This document shows, piece by piece, positions 25,887 to 33,304 of a DNA stretch of 64,000 nucleotides. The DNA is taken from assembly GCA_001542995.1 (NCBI GenBank), contig LFLA01000018.1, positions 161,501 to 225,500 on the forward strand. The letters are read 5' to 3'. Every line of letters starts with the position of its first letter. Within the stretch, counting starts at the first letter, position 1. The DNA is from Nitrospina sp. LS_NOB. Lineage in GTDB: Bacteria > Nitrospinota > Nitrospinia > Nitrospinales > VA-1. Below the pieces are notes generated by a model. That model was not told where the DNA came from, ran no database searches, and saw only the letters and a program-made list of their open reading frames with translations. The position numbers and the translations under genes are program-made.

Positions 25887-26369
25887 TTAAAGTAAAGTGA
25901 AAACAGGGGAGGATCGGGGTTCCGGAAAAAAGGAATGGAAGGTGAATTCACGTTCGGAGTCGCTGATAATTTTTATATTAATTTCTATTCGATCCTGGAT
26001 GTTCAGGATGAGACTTTCAGGGTTTTTGGGCGAGCGTAGTTTTTCTGCCCATTCAATGACGGTGACTCCCTGGTTAAATAAAATTTCCTCAAGGCCCAGA
26101 GAATAGATTTCTTCCTGGTTCTCGATCCGGTATAGATCGATATGGTAAATAGGAAGTCGGCCCAGGTATTCGTTAATCAGTGTGAAGGTTGGACTGCGAA
26201 TATAGGAACCCTTGTCCAGTTCCAAACCGTAACAGATTCCCTGGGTCAGGTGGGTTTTGCCTGCGCCGAGGTCTCCAAATAGAAGAACAATGTCACCGGC
26301 GATCAATGAGCTGCCGAGAGATTTTCCCAATTGTAGAGTTTCTTCAGGACTGTGGGATATTTTTTTCAT
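25887..26369 (-). CDS. tsaE: tRNA N6-threonylcarbamoyladenosine biosynthesis ATPase TsaE
   Basis: 160 residues from ATG 26369, which matches the family N-terminus (MKKISHSPEETLQLGKSLG). The frame is open to an ATG at 26414 that overlaps nnr and has a GGAG upstream, so a longer form cannot be excluded. P-loop GDLGAGKTHL, then SPTFTLINEY, YHIDLYR and VIEWAEK are all present. It works with TsaB and TsaD in t6A formation. It follows nnr closely. Confidence 0.93.
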   Translation of the reverse strand: MKKISHSPEETLQLGKSLGSSLIAGDIVLLFGDLGAGKTHLTQGICYGLELDKGSYIRSPTFTLINEYLGRLPIYHIDLYRIENQEEIYSLGLEEILFNQGVTVIEWAEKLRSPKNPESLILNIQDRIEINIKIISDSEREFTFHSFFPEPRSSPVFTLL

Positions 26370-26377
26370 TTTTGATA

Positions 26378-27922
26378 TCAGGGAAGTATGCGTTTCAGGG
26401 TTTCCGGCAAGCATCTTAATAAATCTCCCGCGATCAAAGTGGTTTGGCTTTCACTTTCGGCAAAATAATCTCCTGCCTCGCCGTGTATATAAGCTCCAGC
26501 AATGGAAGCCTGTGCGGTGGAAAAACCCTGAGCCATTAACCCTGCAATGATTCCGGTCAAAACGTCTCCCGACCCACCGGTCGCCATGCCAGCATTGCCT
26601 GTGGGATTGATGACCAGTGATCCATCGGCCAATGCAATCAGGCTTGGAGAACCTTTTAAGATCAGGGTCAAGGAATGATTGCTGGAAAATTTAGAGGCCG
26701 TGGTAATACGGTTTTTTTGAATTTCTTCCGTTGGCATTCCAGTTAAACGGGACATTTCTTTCGGATGTGGGGTGAGAACGGTTTCGGGTTTCAACTTTTC
26801 CAGCCAATCCTTATGCAACGATAACGCGTTTAGAGCATCCGCATCCAGCACTAGCGGGCACTGAATCTGCGGCAGTATCTCACCGATCAAAGCAACCGTT
26901 TCCGGATCGGTGGAGATTCCTGGTCCAACAGCTACTGCAGACTTACCCTCGAGAAGATTCAGAATGGATTCTTTTGCCTTCAAGGATAATGTGCCGCTGG
27001 TGGTTTCAGGTAGTGGGACGGTCATCACTTCCATAGGATGAACCGCCTTCTGGCTGGAGTCTGGAAGCGCGAGTGTGCATAAACCGGCTCCGGCCCGTAG
27101 AACAGCGAGAGCCGTCAACCCTGCGGCACCGCTTTTGCCTCTCGACCCGGCAAGCACCAGAACATGACCATAATCGCCTTTGTGGGAATTGGGGTTGCGT
27201 TTTTGGAAATAAGATTTTATGTCCTTCTCTTCGGACTGATGAACCTGGATATTCTGACTTTCACAGGCCTTTGCCGGGATTCCAATATCAATGAGCCTGA
27301 TTTCTTTCATGACCCCAGCTGACGGGTGGAGCAAATGGCTTTGCTTGTAGTAGGCGAGGGCAAGGGTCAGGTCAGATTTGACATGCGGTCCCATTAACTG
27401 GCCGCTATCGGAGTCCACTCCAGAATTGATATCCACCGAGACCACAAACTTTTCAAACTGGTTGATTTTATCGATGACTTTTTCCATGAATCCCGAGACA
27501 GGTTTGTTTAAACCGGTCCCGAACACAGCATCAATGATGATATCGCAATGGCGTAGTTTATGATCATGGCGGTTCAAATGTTTAGAGCCTAGTTCATCAA
27601 CCTGGATGCCGATATTTCGGGCGGAGTTGGCGTTGATTCCAGCATCTCCTTTAAGTTCCGACAATTTTCCGGCCGAGAGGACCGTCACTTCAGAACCCAG
27701 GTTGGCCAGATGCCGGGCAATGACGAATCCATCTCCCCCGTTATTGCCCATGCCGCAAAATATGAATATCTTTTTTTGATGCAGATCGGGAAAACGCTTT
27801 TGCAGTTCATGGACAACCCCAATACCGGCGTTTTCCATGAGGGTGATACCGGGAATGGCAAATCCATCAATCGCCTGCCGGTCGATGGCCTGCATCTGTT
27901 CTGCTGTAACAACAGGGAACAA
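26378..27922 (-). CDS. nnr: Bifunctional NAD(P)H-hydrate repair enzyme (epimerase plus dehydratase)
   Basis: 514 residues. Start TTG 27922 is supported by TAGGAG upstream and by homology-like residues before the first ATG (27895). The N-terminal YjeF_N epimerase domain (about 1-215) has GNNGGDGFVIARHL and DAVFGTGL. The C-terminal ribokinase-like dehydratase domain (about 225-510) has LDADALNAL, LTPHPKEMSRL and GSGDVLTGIIAGL. It restores hydrated NADH and NADPH. The nnr-tsaE pairing is common. Confidence 0.95.
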   Translation of the reverse strand: MFPVVTAEQMQAIDRQAIDGFAIPGITLMENAGIGVVHELQKRFPDLHQKKIFIFCGMGNNGGDGFVIARHLANLGSEVTVLSAGKLSELKGDAGINANSARNIGIQVDELGSKHLNRHDHKLRHCDIIIDAVFGTGLNKPVSGFMEKVIDKINQFEKFVVSVDINSGVDSDSGQLMGPHVKSDLTLALAYYKQSHLLHPSAGVMKEIRLIDIGIPAKACESQNIQVHQSEEKDIKSYFQKRNPNSHKGDYGHVLVLAGSRGKSGAAGLTALAVLRAGAGLCTLALPDSSQKAVHPMEVMTVPLPETTSGTLSLKAKESILNLLEGKSAVAVGPGISTDPETVALIGEILPQIQCPLVLDADALNALSLHKDWLEKLKPETVLTPHPKEMSRLTGMPTEEIQKNRITTASKFSSNHSLTLILKGSPSLIALADGSLVINPTGNAGMATGGSGDVLTGIIAGLMAQGFSTAQASIAGAYIHGEAGDYFAESESQTTLIAGDLLRCLPETLKRILP

Positions 27923-28015: not shown

Positions 28016-28366
28016 GTGAGTAACAAAAATAACAGTATAAATTATATTGAATTTCCTATGGTTAAAAATGCCGAAACAAAAAATTTCTATAATCAGGTAT
28101 TTGATTGGGAGTTTTCAGATTGGGGGCCAAAATACATCAGTTTTTCTGGAGCAAATATTGACGGTGGTTTTAATGGGGAAGGGGATGCCCAAGTATCGAG
28201 TGGGGGTGTTCTGGTTGTCCTATATGCCAACGACCTGAATCAAAAATTTGAAGAAGTGAAAAAGGCGGGAGGCGAAATCGTTAAACCCATCTTTGAATTT
28301 CCTGGAGGAAAAAGATTCCATTTTAGTGATCCCAATGGGAATGAGATTGCGGTATGGTCAGAATAA
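28016..28366 (+). CDS. VOC/glyoxalase-family protein
   Basis: 116 residues from GTG 28016 with AAAAGGG upstream. One vicinal-oxygen-chelate module: NYIEFPMVKNAETKNFYNQV at the start, FDWEFSDWGP, and FEFPGGKRFHFSDPNGNEIA at the end (metal-ligand Glu region). It is similar to the small PhnB/YdeN-like proteins whose substrates are mostly unknown. It lies 18 bases upstream of tag, so the two are probably cotranscribed. Confidence 0.85.
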   Translation: MSNKNNSINYIEFPMVKNAETKNFYNQVFDWEFSDWGPKYISFSGANIDGGFNGEGDAQVSSGGVLVVLYANDLNQKFEEVKKAGGEIVKPIFEFPGGKRFHFSDPNGNEIAVWSE

Positions 28367-28384
28367 TTCTTTAAGAGGTCAATT

Positions 28385-28963
28385 GTGATAATACGGTGTG
28401 CCTGGCTTGGTCATAATTCAAAACCCTCAGAGTTGGATATTACATATCATGATGAGGAATGGGGAGTTCCGGTTCATGATGACAGAACATTTTTTGAGTT
28501 CCTAATTTTAGAAGGCGCACAGGCAGGGCTTAGCTGGACGACGGTTCTTAAAAAACGCGATAATTATCGTAAGGCCTATGATAATTTTGAACCTAAAAAG
28601 GTCGCAAAATATAATGATTCTAATCAGCGGGAACTCTTGCAAAATGCAGGTATTGTTCGGAATCGTTTGAAAGTGGCGGCTTCAGTTACCAATGCCAAGG
28701 CATTTTTAGAAGTACAAAAAGAGTTTGGTAGTTTTAATAAATATATTTGGGGATTTGTCGACAATAAAACCATACAAAATAGCTGGAAATCGTTGAAAAA
28801 AATCCCCGCCACTACAAATGAATCAGATACGATGAGCAAGGATTTAAAAAAGCGCGGTTTCAAATTTGTGGGTTCCACCATCTGCTATGCCTTCATGCAG
28901 GCAACCGGCATGGTCAATGACCATACAACCACTTGCTTCAGATATAAAAGCTTGCATGGTTGA
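28385..28963 (+). CDS. tag: DNA-3-methyladenine glycosylase I
   Basis: 192 residues from GTG 28385. It removes 3-methyladenine from alkylated DNA. The N-terminal RCAWLG...YHDEEWG contributes zinc ligands Cys5 and a His, and the C-terminal GMVNDHTTTCF gives the other His and Cys. The helix-hairpin region EGAQAGLSWTTVLKKRDNYR is well conserved. The length equals the family norm. Confidence 0.95.
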   Translation: MIIRCAWLGHNSKPSELDITYHDEEWGVPVHDDRTFFEFLILEGAQAGLSWTTVLKKRDNYRKAYDNFEPKKVAKYNDSNQRELLQNAGIVRNRLKVAASVTNAKAFLEVQKEFGSFNKYIWGFVDNKTIQNSWKSLKKIPATTNESDTMSKDLKKRGFKFVGSTICYAFMQATGMVNDHTTTCFRYKSLHG

Positions 28964-29053: not shown

Positions 29054-29662
29054 TTACACAAAAACCGTGTAAGGATAATCTTGGGATTCTTTAAGGGCCA
29101 TTTCTTCCCGTGTCGGGATTAGGCCATTGACGACACCAAACAGGCAGGGGCAGTCGTACACGGTTTTATCCTCCGATTTAAGCGAATTGAAATGCTCGGG
29201 GTCGATCAGGAATGATTGATTGAAGAAATAGTTGCTGACAAAATTGCCAAGATATACAGGCTTGCCCTTTAACTCAGGAAGGTGTGATGACTTCTCCTGC
29301 AAACTGTCATGGTTGTAGTCAAAAGAAAAGCGCACCAACACATCATACAAAAAACAAAAATGGTAAGTATTCATATGCTGCCAGCATGAAGCCTGGATTA
29401 ATCCGAGCCGCAATATTCTCAGGATCTCTTTAAGCGAGTGCAAAGAATTGATTCTTCCCGAGTGGGGATAAAACTGTTTGAAATCCTCTTTCCAGTACAT
29501 TTGGGGCTGGTGTTCAATGAATGACAGGACATCTTCTTCTTGATTTAATGCCACTTCAACAAAATGGCGGGGATCGAAACAGGAATTGTAGTCCGAGTCG
29601 GGGCAAGGAATCAGTTTGCCGGGGGACGAGGTGTCATAAATATTGTTTTTGAAAACGAGCAT
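29054..29662 (-). CDS. Unknown protein, paralogue of the gene at 30400-30999
   Basis: 202 residues, no signal peptide or membrane segment. It aligns end to end with the 199-residue protein encoded at 30400. Shared landmarks: MLVFKxNI at the start, MN-YH in the middle (NTYHFCFLYD / NAYHMTYLFD), LPEL-G, a YFF pair before FL-D-E-FN, and PCLFGV-N-LIP-EE--LK-S at the end. I recognise no family. It is rich in aromatic residues and His. No ribosome site is clear. It lies opposite in strand to the glutathione peroxidase between the paralogues. Confidence 0.65.
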   Translation of the reverse strand: MLVFKNNIYDTSSPGKLIPCPDSDYNSCFDPRHFVEVALNQEEDVLSFIEHQPQMYWKEDFKQFYPHSGRINSLHSLKEILRILRLGLIQASCWQHMNTYHFCFLYDVLVRFSFDYNHDSLQEKSSHLPELKGKPVYLGNFVSNYFFNQSFLIDPEHFNSLKSEDKTVYDCPCLFGVVNGLIPTREEMALKESQDYPYTVFV

Positions 29663-29794
29663 TTGACGAATTTGCTATTTGGTTTTTTCAGTAATCTGCT
29701 ATATTTTAAGGAGCCTTGTTTCTATGGCTCTCACCACCATATATTATACCTGAACTGCAGGACCCAATTCGGTTTCTAATCCCAAGTTTGGACT

Positions 29795-30376
29795 ATGAAC
29801 TTTTTAGATAAAAACATCTATGACTTTGAAGCTCGATCCATTGCCGGAGAGGTGTCCGGGCTTGGTAAATATCAGGGGAGGGTTTTGCTGATTGTCAATG
29901 TGGCCTCGGATTGTGGATTCACTCCTCAATATTCGGGGCTGCAAAAACTCTATGAGCAATATCGAGATCAGGGATTAAGTATTCTGGCTTTTCCTTCTAA
30001 TGACTTTGGCGCGCAGGAGCCCGGTTCCGACGAGGAGATCAAAAATTTTTGCCAGAAAAATTTTAACGTAACGTTTGATCTTTTCAGTAAGGTGCCTGTT
30101 CTGGGCCCGCCAAAACTTGATCTTTACCAATATCTATATAATTGTGACTTGAAGCATCAAGGCGGTGAGGGATTTCGGTCGCAAATATTTGGACTGGTAA
30201 AATGGGTGTTATACCGGTTAAAAGGAAAGTGGGTGCCAGAAAAAAATGAAGCGCAATGGAATTTTCATAAATTCCTAATTGGGAAAAATGGAATACCCGT
30301 GGCTAGTTTTTTGAGTGAGGTGACACCGGACTCCAGCCTTCTGATCCAGAAACTGGAAGAGGAGTTAGGGAAATAG
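29795..30376 (+). CDS. Glutathione peroxidase-family thiol peroxidase
   Basis: 193 residues. Peroxidatic Cys40 lies in NVASDCGFTPQY. The tetrad partners are Gln in FGAQEPG and Trp/Asn in QWNFHKFLI. The usual resolving-Cys motif FPCNQF reads FPSNDF, so the common resolving Cys is absent. A 20-residue stretch before the WNF motif is longer than in BtuE. There is no signal peptide. It probably reduces hydroperoxides using thioredoxin or another thiol. It is nested between two paralogous unknown genes on the other strand. Confidence 0.9.
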   Translation: MNFLDKNIYDFEARSIAGEVSGLGKYQGRVLLIVNVASDCGFTPQYSGLQKLYEQYRDQGLSILAFPSNDFGAQEPGSDEEIKNFCQKNFNVTFDLFSKVPVLGPPKLDLYQYLYNCDLKHQGGEGFRSQIFGLVKWVLYRLKGKWVPEKNEAQWNFHKFLIGKNGIPVASFLSEVTPDSSLLIQKLEEELGK

Positions 30377-30399
30377 CGCATTTCTTATCGGCATGGTTT

Positions 30400-30999
30400 T
30401 TATTCAGGGGAGTAGGGGGTTTGCAGGCTTTTTTTGAGCACAACTTCTTCTTCAGCAGGGATCAGCCTGTTGATCACCCCGAACAGGCAGGGATCGGTGA
30501 GTTTCAGGTCTTTCTTTTCTTCCGGCGGCATATTGTTGAATCGTTCGGCATCCATTAAAAATGCGGTCCCAAAAAAATAACTTTCCAGAAAATGATCAAA
30601 GTTAATAGCATCCCCGTGAAGCTCGGGAAATATTTCTTTCCTTTGCGCCGGTTCCGAGTAGCTGTAGTCCTCAAAAGTACCATGCAGACTGTCGAACAAA
30701 TATGTCATATGATATGCATTCATGGAGTACCACTGGTTTTTGTCGATCAATCCTTCCAGGAGCGACCGGGAGAAACTGTTGATCAGCGAAATGGAACCAA
30801 ATCTGGATACATGAGGGAATAAAGTCTTGAAACGATCCTGACCTTCCGCTTGAGGAAGCTGTTGTAGTCCGTAAAAGATTTCTCGGTCGGTGGTCAGCGA
30901 CCTGAAAATAAAAGCAAAAGGATCCAGGTTTTGCTGGGCCTCATTTTCAGGATGATGGGAGTGAGAGGTGTTGTGGATATTTTTTTTAAATACCAGCAT
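30400..30999 (-). CDS. Unknown protein, paralogue of the gene at 29054-29662
   Basis: 199 residues. It has the same architecture and landmarks as the protein at 29054 (MLVFKKNI, NAYHMTYLFD, FPELHG, ESYFFGTAFLMDAERFN, PCLFGVINRLIPAEEE). Divergence is strongest at residues 12-60, where this copy is His/Asn-rich. AAGG lies 13 bases before the start. Function is unknown. The retained Tyr-His and Phe-rich motifs suggest a shared fold rather than drift. Confidence 0.65.
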   Translation of the reverse strand: MLVFKKNIHNTSHSHHPENEAQQNLDPFAFIFRSLTTDREIFYGLQQLPQAEGQDRFKTLFPHVSRFGSISLINSFSRSLLEGLIDKNQWYSMNAYHMTYLFDSLHGTFEDYSYSEPAQRKEIFPELHGDAINFDHFLESYFFGTAFLMDAERFNNMPPEEKKDLKLTDPCLFGVINRLIPAEEEVVLKKSLQTPYSPE

Positions 31000-31082: not shown

Positions 31083-32444
31083 ATGTTAGACAGTGAAGAT
31101 TCTTTATGGAATGAGTTGGGCAAATTACTTGAAAGTTCCCAATTAAGCAATTATTGGGAGATGATCACCCAGTTCCGCCATGGACCGTCTAAGGTTCAGG
31201 ACTGGAGTTCCATAATGACCCCCGACTCCAGCAACCTGTTGGATTTTTCCAGTCTGCCACCTCCGAAACATTCCCAGATCGCACGCCAATTATCAAAGCT
31301 TGTTGTGGGCAAGCTCAATGGTGGCATGGGTACCAGCATGGGCTGTGTGGGGCCAAAGTCTCTGGTTGAGGTGCGGGACAATAAATCCTTTCTGGATTTG
31401 ATATTAGAACAAATCGAGAGCCTGAATCGGGAATGGGATCAAAAAATCCCTCTCCTCTTGATGAACAGTTTCTACACGCATGAGAAAACCCAGGCCCATT
31501 TGAATGCCTTGAAGTTCTCTTCAGAAATAATAGGTTTTCAACAAAGCAAATTCCCTCGCCTGCATTTAGAGGGCCTGAGTCCGCTCACCCCTGATAAGTG
31601 GGGGGATCAGGCATACTATCCTCCCGGGCATGGAGATTTTTATCAATGTGTCTGGCAACAGGGAATTTTACAAAAGCTGATAGATGCGGGCAGGGAAATT
31701 CTTTTTATTTCCAATGCCGATAACCTTGGCGCGGTTGTGGACCCTGTCATCCTGAATTATATGGATGAATTCAACATCCCTTTCTTAATGGAAATGGCAG
31801 CTAAAACCCCAGCGGATGTTAAGGGGGGTACTCTTTACCAGCAGAATGGAAAGCTCAAGCTGTTGGAGATTGCCCGCGTTCCCGATGATAAGGTCGATGA
31901 GTTTTGTGACCAGAAAAAATTCAAGGTTTTCAATACCAATAATATCTGGATAAACCTGGTGGCTCTGAACAACAGGCTAAAAAAAGGCTCTCTGGAATTA
32001 AGTGTGATGGTGAACCGGAAAAATGTTGAAGAAAATCCTGTAGTTCAACTTGAAACGGCTATCGGTTCGGGTTTGGAATGCTTCGAGGGGGCGGTAGGCC
32101 TCACTGTTTCGCGTGAGCGTTTTTTGCCGGTTAAAAAGACGGATGATTTGCTGTTGGTCCGCTCCAACCTTTTTAGCTTGAGCAATGGAAAGTTAATTAG
32201 AGACCGAAAGTCCCATCCATTACCCTTAATAGAGCTGGGGGACTTCCTGCAAGATATAGAAAATTTTCAAAACGCTTTTTCCATCATTCCGGACCTTGTA
32301 GATTTGAAGGAACTGAAGATAGATGGCGATGTTCGATTTGAAGGAGCGGCTTGCCTCAAAGGCAAGGTTCATTTGCAAGGATTGAAAAAGACTTTAGTCC
32401 TACTTTCAGGAGTGGTGCTTACCGATGAAAGCCGACAAGGTTGA
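31083..32444 (+). CDS. UTP--glucose-1-phosphate uridylyltransferase, UDPGP (eukaryote-type) family
   Basis: 453 residues. It converts UTP and glucose-1-phosphate to UDP-glucose for glycan and envelope synthesis. The nucleotide-binding loop KLNGGMGTSMGCVGPKS is the UDPGP hallmark, followed by LLMNSFYTHEKT, PPGHGDFYQ, ISNADNLGAVVD and a C-terminal left-handed beta-helix region. This family is unlike bacterial GalU, and occurs in eukaryotes and scattered bacteria. AGGA precedes the ATG. The gene stands alone, with a 431-base gap after it. Confidence 0.92.
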   Translation: MLDSEDSLWNELGKLLESSQLSNYWEMITQFRHGPSKVQDWSSIMTPDSSNLLDFSSLPPPKHSQIARQLSKLVVGKLNGGMGTSMGCVGPKSLVEVRDNKSFLDLILEQIESLNREWDQKIPLLLMNSFYTHEKTQAHLNALKFSSEIIGFQQSKFPRLHLEGLSPLTPDKWGDQAYYPPGHGDFYQCVWQQGILQKLIDAGREILFISNADNLGAVVDPVILNYMDEFNIPFLMEMAAKTPADVKGGTLYQQNGKLKLLEIARVPDDKVDEFCDQKKFKVFNTNNIWINLVALNNRLKKGSLELSVMVNRKNVEENPVVQLETAIGSGLECFEGAVGLTVSRERFLPVKKTDDLLLVRSNLFSLSNGKLIRDRKSHPLPLIELGDFLQDIENFQNAFSIIPDLVDLKELKIDGDVRFEGAACLKGKVHLQGLKKTLVLLSGVVLTDESRQG

Positions 32445-32875: not shown

Positions 32876-33304
32876 ATGAAAAAACTCGCTATTGTTTTAG
32901 TTGTAACCATTGCGTCTTTCTGTCTCGCCAGTTCTGCATTTGCAGGAATGTTGTCGGCGGGCGCGATGACTAAATGCACCGACGCTAAATCCATCAAAAT
33001 TGAAGCTGGGGGTGGCGGAGCTGAAGATCGGGGTGAAGCAAATGCTTCGGTCTGGTTTTCTTCAACTCATATCACGAGTGCTATAAGCTTGGCCCCGAAT
33101 GCGAATATGGGTTTTCCCACGAACGGTGGTGGAGCTGCAGGTAATTCCTCAGTGAAAATGGGCAGCAAGCATTCCATGGGGAAAAAATCTGTGACATTGG
33201 TTAGGCAAAATAACTTCAGCCGTGGCGATTCCATTTCAGACATCAATGGCGAAGTTAGAATCACCAATAATGGTACAACCGATCTTATTATAACCTGTGG
33301 TTAA
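32876..33304 (+). CDS. Small secreted protein, unknown family
   Basis: 142 residues with a clean signal peptide (cleavage after SSAFA, about residue 23). The mature protein is glycine/serine/asparagine-rich, with a GGGGAEDRGEA segment and repeated short polar strands, and has two cysteines, Cys34 and Cys141, that could close a disulfide across the whole chain. AAGGGAG precedes the ATG. A consensus promoter, a long leader and a strong terminator surround it, so it is probably a highly expressed single-gene unit. I recognise no family; a structural or adhesion role is only a guess. Confidence 0.8.
   Translation: MKKLAIVLVVTIASFCLASSAFAGMLSAGAMTKCTDAKSIKIEAGGGGAEDRGEANASVWFSSTHITSAISLAPNANMGFPTNGGGAAGNSSVKMGSKHSMGKKSVTLVRQNNFSRGDSISDINGEVRITNNGTTDLIITCG

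Follow-up and report, generated by a model that had tools for sequence, protein, structure and literature searches.

A lineage-restricted family of four paralogous proteins in Nitrospinota, two of which flank a glutathione peroxidase gene

Genes A and B, which enclose a glutathione peroxidase gene (gpx) in the stretch of DNA analysed here (the window, 64,000 nucleotides from a marine nitrite-oxidising bacterium), encode two members of a family of four paralogues (A-D) that was found in every sampled genome of one order, which we take to be Nitrospinales. The explanation that we tentatively favor overall is that of an order-wide family of non-catalytic binding proteins, of which B would be linked to carbohydrate metabolism, with gpx as a passenger in the locus. 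The family itself is new, with no detectable relation to any searched family or solved structure; its predicted fold may be new as well, and its function is a guess from sequence. As a kind of finding, lineage-restricted families are common and not unusual.

The A/B locus

The window belongs to a 2.65-Mb genome (G000) that is 98.8% complete. An open reading frame check placed A, B and the enclosed gpx as follows, together with their neighbors.

25887..26414, minus strand: TsaE-like gene, continuing the conserved run beyond Nnr
26378..27922, minus strand: NAD(P)HX epimerase/dehydratase (Nnr; PF01256+PF03853)
29054..29662, minus strand: paralogue A, 202 aa, predicted soluble and all-helical, N-terminus MLVFKNNIY, in the A group on the tree
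29663..29794: A/gpx intergenic region of 132 bp between divergent starts, a putative shared promoter region
29795..30376, plus strand: glutathione-peroxidase-family gene (gpx), Cys type (PF00255, E 1.4e-38)
30400..30999, minus strand: paralogue B, 199 aa, tail to tail with gpx
31083..32444, plus strand: UTP-glucose-1-phosphate uridylyltransferase (UGP), UDPGP family (PF01704, E 1.9e-143)

A and B were aligned by BLASTP co-linearly from residue 1 to 199, with 70 of 201 positions identical (35%; 126 bits, E 2e-41). The initial annotation had described a paralogous pair sharing landmarks from end to end; every landmark it named lies within this alignment, and the similarity is far beyond chance. 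The Pfam GSHPx match likewise bore out its naming of the enclosed plus-strand gene as a glutathione peroxidase. The best NCBIfam model for gpx was PRK10606 (E 1.1e-47, below the cut-off of the model), and the motifs NVASDCGFT, QEPG and WNFHKF, read from the sequence, are as expected of a Cys-type Gpx.

Across 41 A/B loci the consensus order was UGP<-, (GlgP->), B->, (<-gpx), A->, Nnr->, TsaE->, LptC->, LptA->, LptB, with arrows giving direction, brackets marking genes not always present and GlgP standing for glycogen phosphorylase (PF00343). Downstream of A, Nnr usually comes next on the same strand (median gap 62 bp, 34 loci), and the genes that follow it in the run are presumably TsaE, LptC, LptA, LptB and RpoN, names given by sequence recognition. 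In the window and in a few congeners, two opposite-strand genes are inserted between A and Nnr (28016-28963), which by recognition we take to be VOC/glyoxalase-like and DNA-3-methyladenine-glycosylase-like genes. A small secreted-looking protein of 142 aa (32876-33304), which had no Pfam match, is encoded near UGP in many A/B loci.

Search for a known family

In profile searches, A and B scored above the curated cut-off of no family in Pfam or NCBIfam, and C and D gave noise only (the match to PRS2_N, with E 0.16, is noise too). This was in agreement with the earlier description of the family as unrecognised, and gave no clear match to a characterised family unrelated to redox. When 77 family members were searched against Pfam and NCBIfam, only scattered matches of one or two members each were obtained (best E 0.0026). 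PDB sequence profiles yielded no relative (only AbpA, at E 0.22), and no mention of the A/B family was found in literature on Nitrospina and Gpx or on signature and lineage-specific families. The dN/dS against the nearest relative was about 0.12 for A and about 0.11 for B, and ranged from 0.05 to 0.17 across close pairs of the family; A and B are under purifying selection.

Small, paired, paralogous orphan genes may suggest a selfish or mobile-element origin, such as toxin-antitoxin or phage-derived genes. We regard this as highly improbable. A, B, C and D had no convincing match in PHROGs and only AbiEi at noise level in PADLOC (E 0.028), and no relative of the family was present in phages, plasmids or IMG/VR viral contigs. 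Moreover, the chromosomal position is fixed, inheritance is vertical and presence in the order is universal. A phage, defence or toxin-antitoxin protein was rejected on the lack of PHROGs or PADLOC matches and of a mobile context.

Distribution and the four paralogues

In a profile search of 77 genomes of Nitrospinota, the family was detected in all 64 genomes of the order of the window genome and in 1 of the 13 others. The family is almost certainly real, universal in the sampled order and nearly confined to it within the phylum. Being common to all sampled genomes of the order and nearly absent elsewhere, it is a good candidate for a lineage-particular trait. The sole relative outside the order was partial (genome G067, L168:1486-1887, E 5.9e-13), an open-ended ORF of 134 aa at the end of its contig that shares YHFLILHDII..HND..YFWDTDFLIP with the family; it lies beside a PEP-utilising-enzyme-like gene. 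A scan of contigs from 85k species with a single N-terminal peptide pattern as query returned 53 loci, all of them labelled Nitrospinota/Nitrospinae or from apparently mislabelled MAGs. The labels of related contigs were Nitrospina, Nitrospinaceae and Nitrospinota, with a few Nitrospirae/Nitrospirota. One contig of an Emcibacteraceae MAG (L118), with an A copy about 83% identical and a B homologue, is probably mis-binned Nitrospina DNA. For a possible link with nitrite oxidation, the type II DMSO-reductase beta model TIGR03478 proved too unspecific, and the sample too MAG-limited, to be informative.

Exactly four matches were found in most nearly complete genomes of the order by profile search, and the A/B pair of the window is likewise part of a four-member family within its one genome. 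The usual set consists of A, B and two paralogues of about 290 aa, C and D, which in the window genome are located as follows.

G000:C24:260370-261092, minus strand: paralogue C (ORF in L003)
G000:C24:406410-407135, plus strand: paralogue D (ORF in L004)

C and D have the core domain of the family and, at the N-terminus, an MLxFAKDI segment, and are extended by a further C-terminal part. In the tree, the split between C/D and A/B had 100% support and that between B and A 99%, and the A group was less firmly resolved; as judged from these sequences, the four paralogues are ancient within the order. A-D resemble other lineage-restricted orphan families in being almost limited to one order, unannotated and conserved, but differ from the usual ones in that four ancient paralogues are fixed order-wide and that a confident model has no PDB fold match. 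A and/or B were present in 54 genomes and both were missing from 10 genomes of the order. Among the latter, one of the same genus as the window (G005; 1.7 Mb, 97% complete) is without A, B, full Gpx and GlgP and retains C and D.

Relationship with glutathione peroxidase

Each of the order's 30 full-length Gpx genes was located in the A/B slot, adjoining A and/or B. Other PF00255 matches in the order were weak and partial, and are most likely thioredoxin-like relatives. The gpx gene lies on the strand opposite to A and B. Its median gap is 10 bp to B, tail to tail (23 loci), and 96 bp to A, head to head (25 loci). In addition, the 10 order genomes without A and B were all without full-length Gpx. 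In organisms lacking catalase and SOD, as described for Nitrospina (PMC3578206; PMC8026999), A and/or B could sense, regulate, inhibit or protect Gpx, and the shared slot, the head-to-head starts of A and gpx and the joint absences agree with such a role. On the other hand, of the 54 genomes that carry A and/or B, 24 were without intact Gpx, including whole genera (g5, g8, g10, g12-g16, plus the genomes G016 and G053, the absence in G053 being uncertain because the MAG is fragmented). A or B may also be missing beside Gpx, no gpx was found near C or D among 20 sampled loci, and the joint absence of A, B and Gpx is confounded by missing contigs and common synteny. We therefore rate a role in peroxide handling as unlikely; it is possible especially for A, which shares the divergent region with gpx, but most of the evidence favors a passenger gpx.

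A, B and gpx have been lost independently: A and gpx occurred without B (L059, L075, L089), B without A (L081, L083, L084-L087, L090) and A without B or gpx (L069). When the presence of gpx was placed on the Nnr tree, 3 changes were required compared with 13.9 for shuffled labels, the kind of clustering that vertical descent would lead one to expect. In G016, a 65-aa gpx remnant lies next to B (L081:8126-8320), A is lost too, and the gpx slot is decaying.

The neighborhood survey thus recovered homologues near a peroxidase again and again, and the repeated association proposed in the initial annotation stood as far as position is concerned (30 of 30 full-length Gpx); functional dependence did not (24 of 54 without intact Gpx). 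The peroxide-specific function suggested there found no support, in view of these same absences, the C and D loci, the opposite strand and the vertical descent of gpx in one slot. An obligate Gpx accessory family was rejected on the same 24 genomes, and it is very likely that gpx is not an obligate partner of A/B. A PF00255/BtuE-like PRK10606 glutathione peroxidase is a physical neighbor of A/B in 30 genomes, but bears no sequence relation to them, and A/B do not require it. Probably gpx is a long-standing neighbor rather than a working partner of A/B; it would have stayed there as an old passenger, sharing at the very most its regulation with A through the divergent region.

Relationship with glycogen phosphorylase and UGP

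The tightest same-strand link of B was with GlgP. In ten loci from families f1, f2 and f4, all in genera other than that of the window (L061, L072, L073, L074, L081, L084-L087, L090), GlgP lies directly upstream of B, separated from it by -14 to +35 bp. In G016 the GlgP-B linkage is kept, though UGP, Nnr and Lpt genes are no longer adjacent. UGP, divergent from B in the window, is a conserved neighbor that adjoins in nearly all complete A/B loci, and Nitrospina stores glycogen (PMC3578206). These observations would fit a role of B, and perhaps of A, as a subunit dedicated to regulating or localising GlgP. However, several genomes that are 96-97% complete (G026, G050, G025) keep B but have no full GlgP, indicating that GlgP is not obligate. 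Furthermore, GlgP, usually present as one full-length copy per genome, is unlinked in most of f1 and is found elsewhere in the window genome (G000:C4), and A, C and D do not generally adjoin GlgP. A dedicated GlgP subunit is doubtful. B resembles the accessory genes of glycogen phosphorylase (PF00343) operons in standing immediately behind glgP in the ten loci, but it has no Pfam or NCBIfam relation to known glgP accessory families and also occurs without GlgP.

In the binding-protein reading that we prefer, B was probably co-expressed ancestrally with glycogen phosphorylase, beside UDP-glucose pyrophosphorylase, which makes a role with stored carbohydrate the most concrete guess. From gene neighborhood, a tie of B to the use of glycogen or stored carbohydrate is possible but less likely than not; synteny alone is weak as evidence of function. 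It is quite improbable that the helical family forms a regulatory layer joining glycogen/UDP-glucose metabolism (B-GlgP-UGP) with peroxide handling (A-gpx). If true, such a layer would be lineage-specific, in nitrite oxidisers without catalase and SOD.

Predicted structure and conserved residues

Structure prediction with AlphaFold2, using a 77-sequence alignment for A, gave a confident model of A (mean pLDDT 92.4, pTM 0.90) with twelve helices and strands that are all very short. A C protein was modelled at pLDDT 88.6 and pTM 0.85, its C-terminus being less certain. Foldseek returned nothing at E < 0.001 against the PDB (best E 2.8 for A and 1.8 for C, TM < 0.3) or BFVD (best E 1.8). By comparison of these models with PDB and BFVD, the fold of the family may be a new one. 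A glutathione peroxidase/thioredoxin fold for A/B was rejected, as there was no GSHPx profile match and the A model is all-helical.

Most members share W94, N98, Y100, D107, Y116, F146, F151, L190 and Y198, as well as MLxF.K.(N/D)I at the N-terminus. A and B both retain H101, D107 and E187. This conservation, together with the description of superoxide defence in Nitrospinota as a mystery (PMC8026999), could point to a novel enzyme or metal/redox protein, acting in superoxide/peroxide defence or in another activity of H101/D107/E187. However, C has Tyr in place of H101 and D has lost E187, no conserved cysteine was found across the family alignment, a conserved Cys/His ligand set is absent, and Foldseek gave no redox-fold match in PDB and BFVD. 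We consider a novel enzyme or metal/redox protein improbable. Because H101 and E187 are not kept in all paralogues and no Cys is conserved, there is no family-wide catalytic or metal site, from which we infer a binding protein; the missing common catalytic set may also be compatible with paralogue-specific chemistry. Whether A/B belong to a family of non-catalytic binding proteins is, on these sequences, an even call. A-D would then act as non-catalytic regulatory or adaptor subunits, and binding might proceed via the aromatic/Asn/Asp core W94-N98-Y100-D107-Y116-F146-F151-Y198 and the N-terminal MLxFKKNI segment.

Neighbors of C and D

The neighbors of C were SPFH/HflKC-like, TrkA/TrkH-like and radical-SAM genes, and D stands behind a small unnamed gene, near an NAD-synthetase-like gene. 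Because these neighbors are quite different from those of A/B, a single pathway common to A-D is not evident. C is often divergent from the radical-SAM gene (PF04055, E 3.7e-9; L093:6392-7456; also L097, L099, L101-L103, L108), the product of which has a C-terminal Cys cluster of SPASM-like appearance; in other genera, C is found beside the SPFH/HflKC-like and TrkA/TrkH-like genes instead. A small conserved protein of 148 aa without a Pfam match (LPFKPVYDACKK..., L094:4944-5390; also L096, L111) was encoded immediately upstream of D or close by on that side in all three D loci examined, near the NAD-synthetase-like gene.
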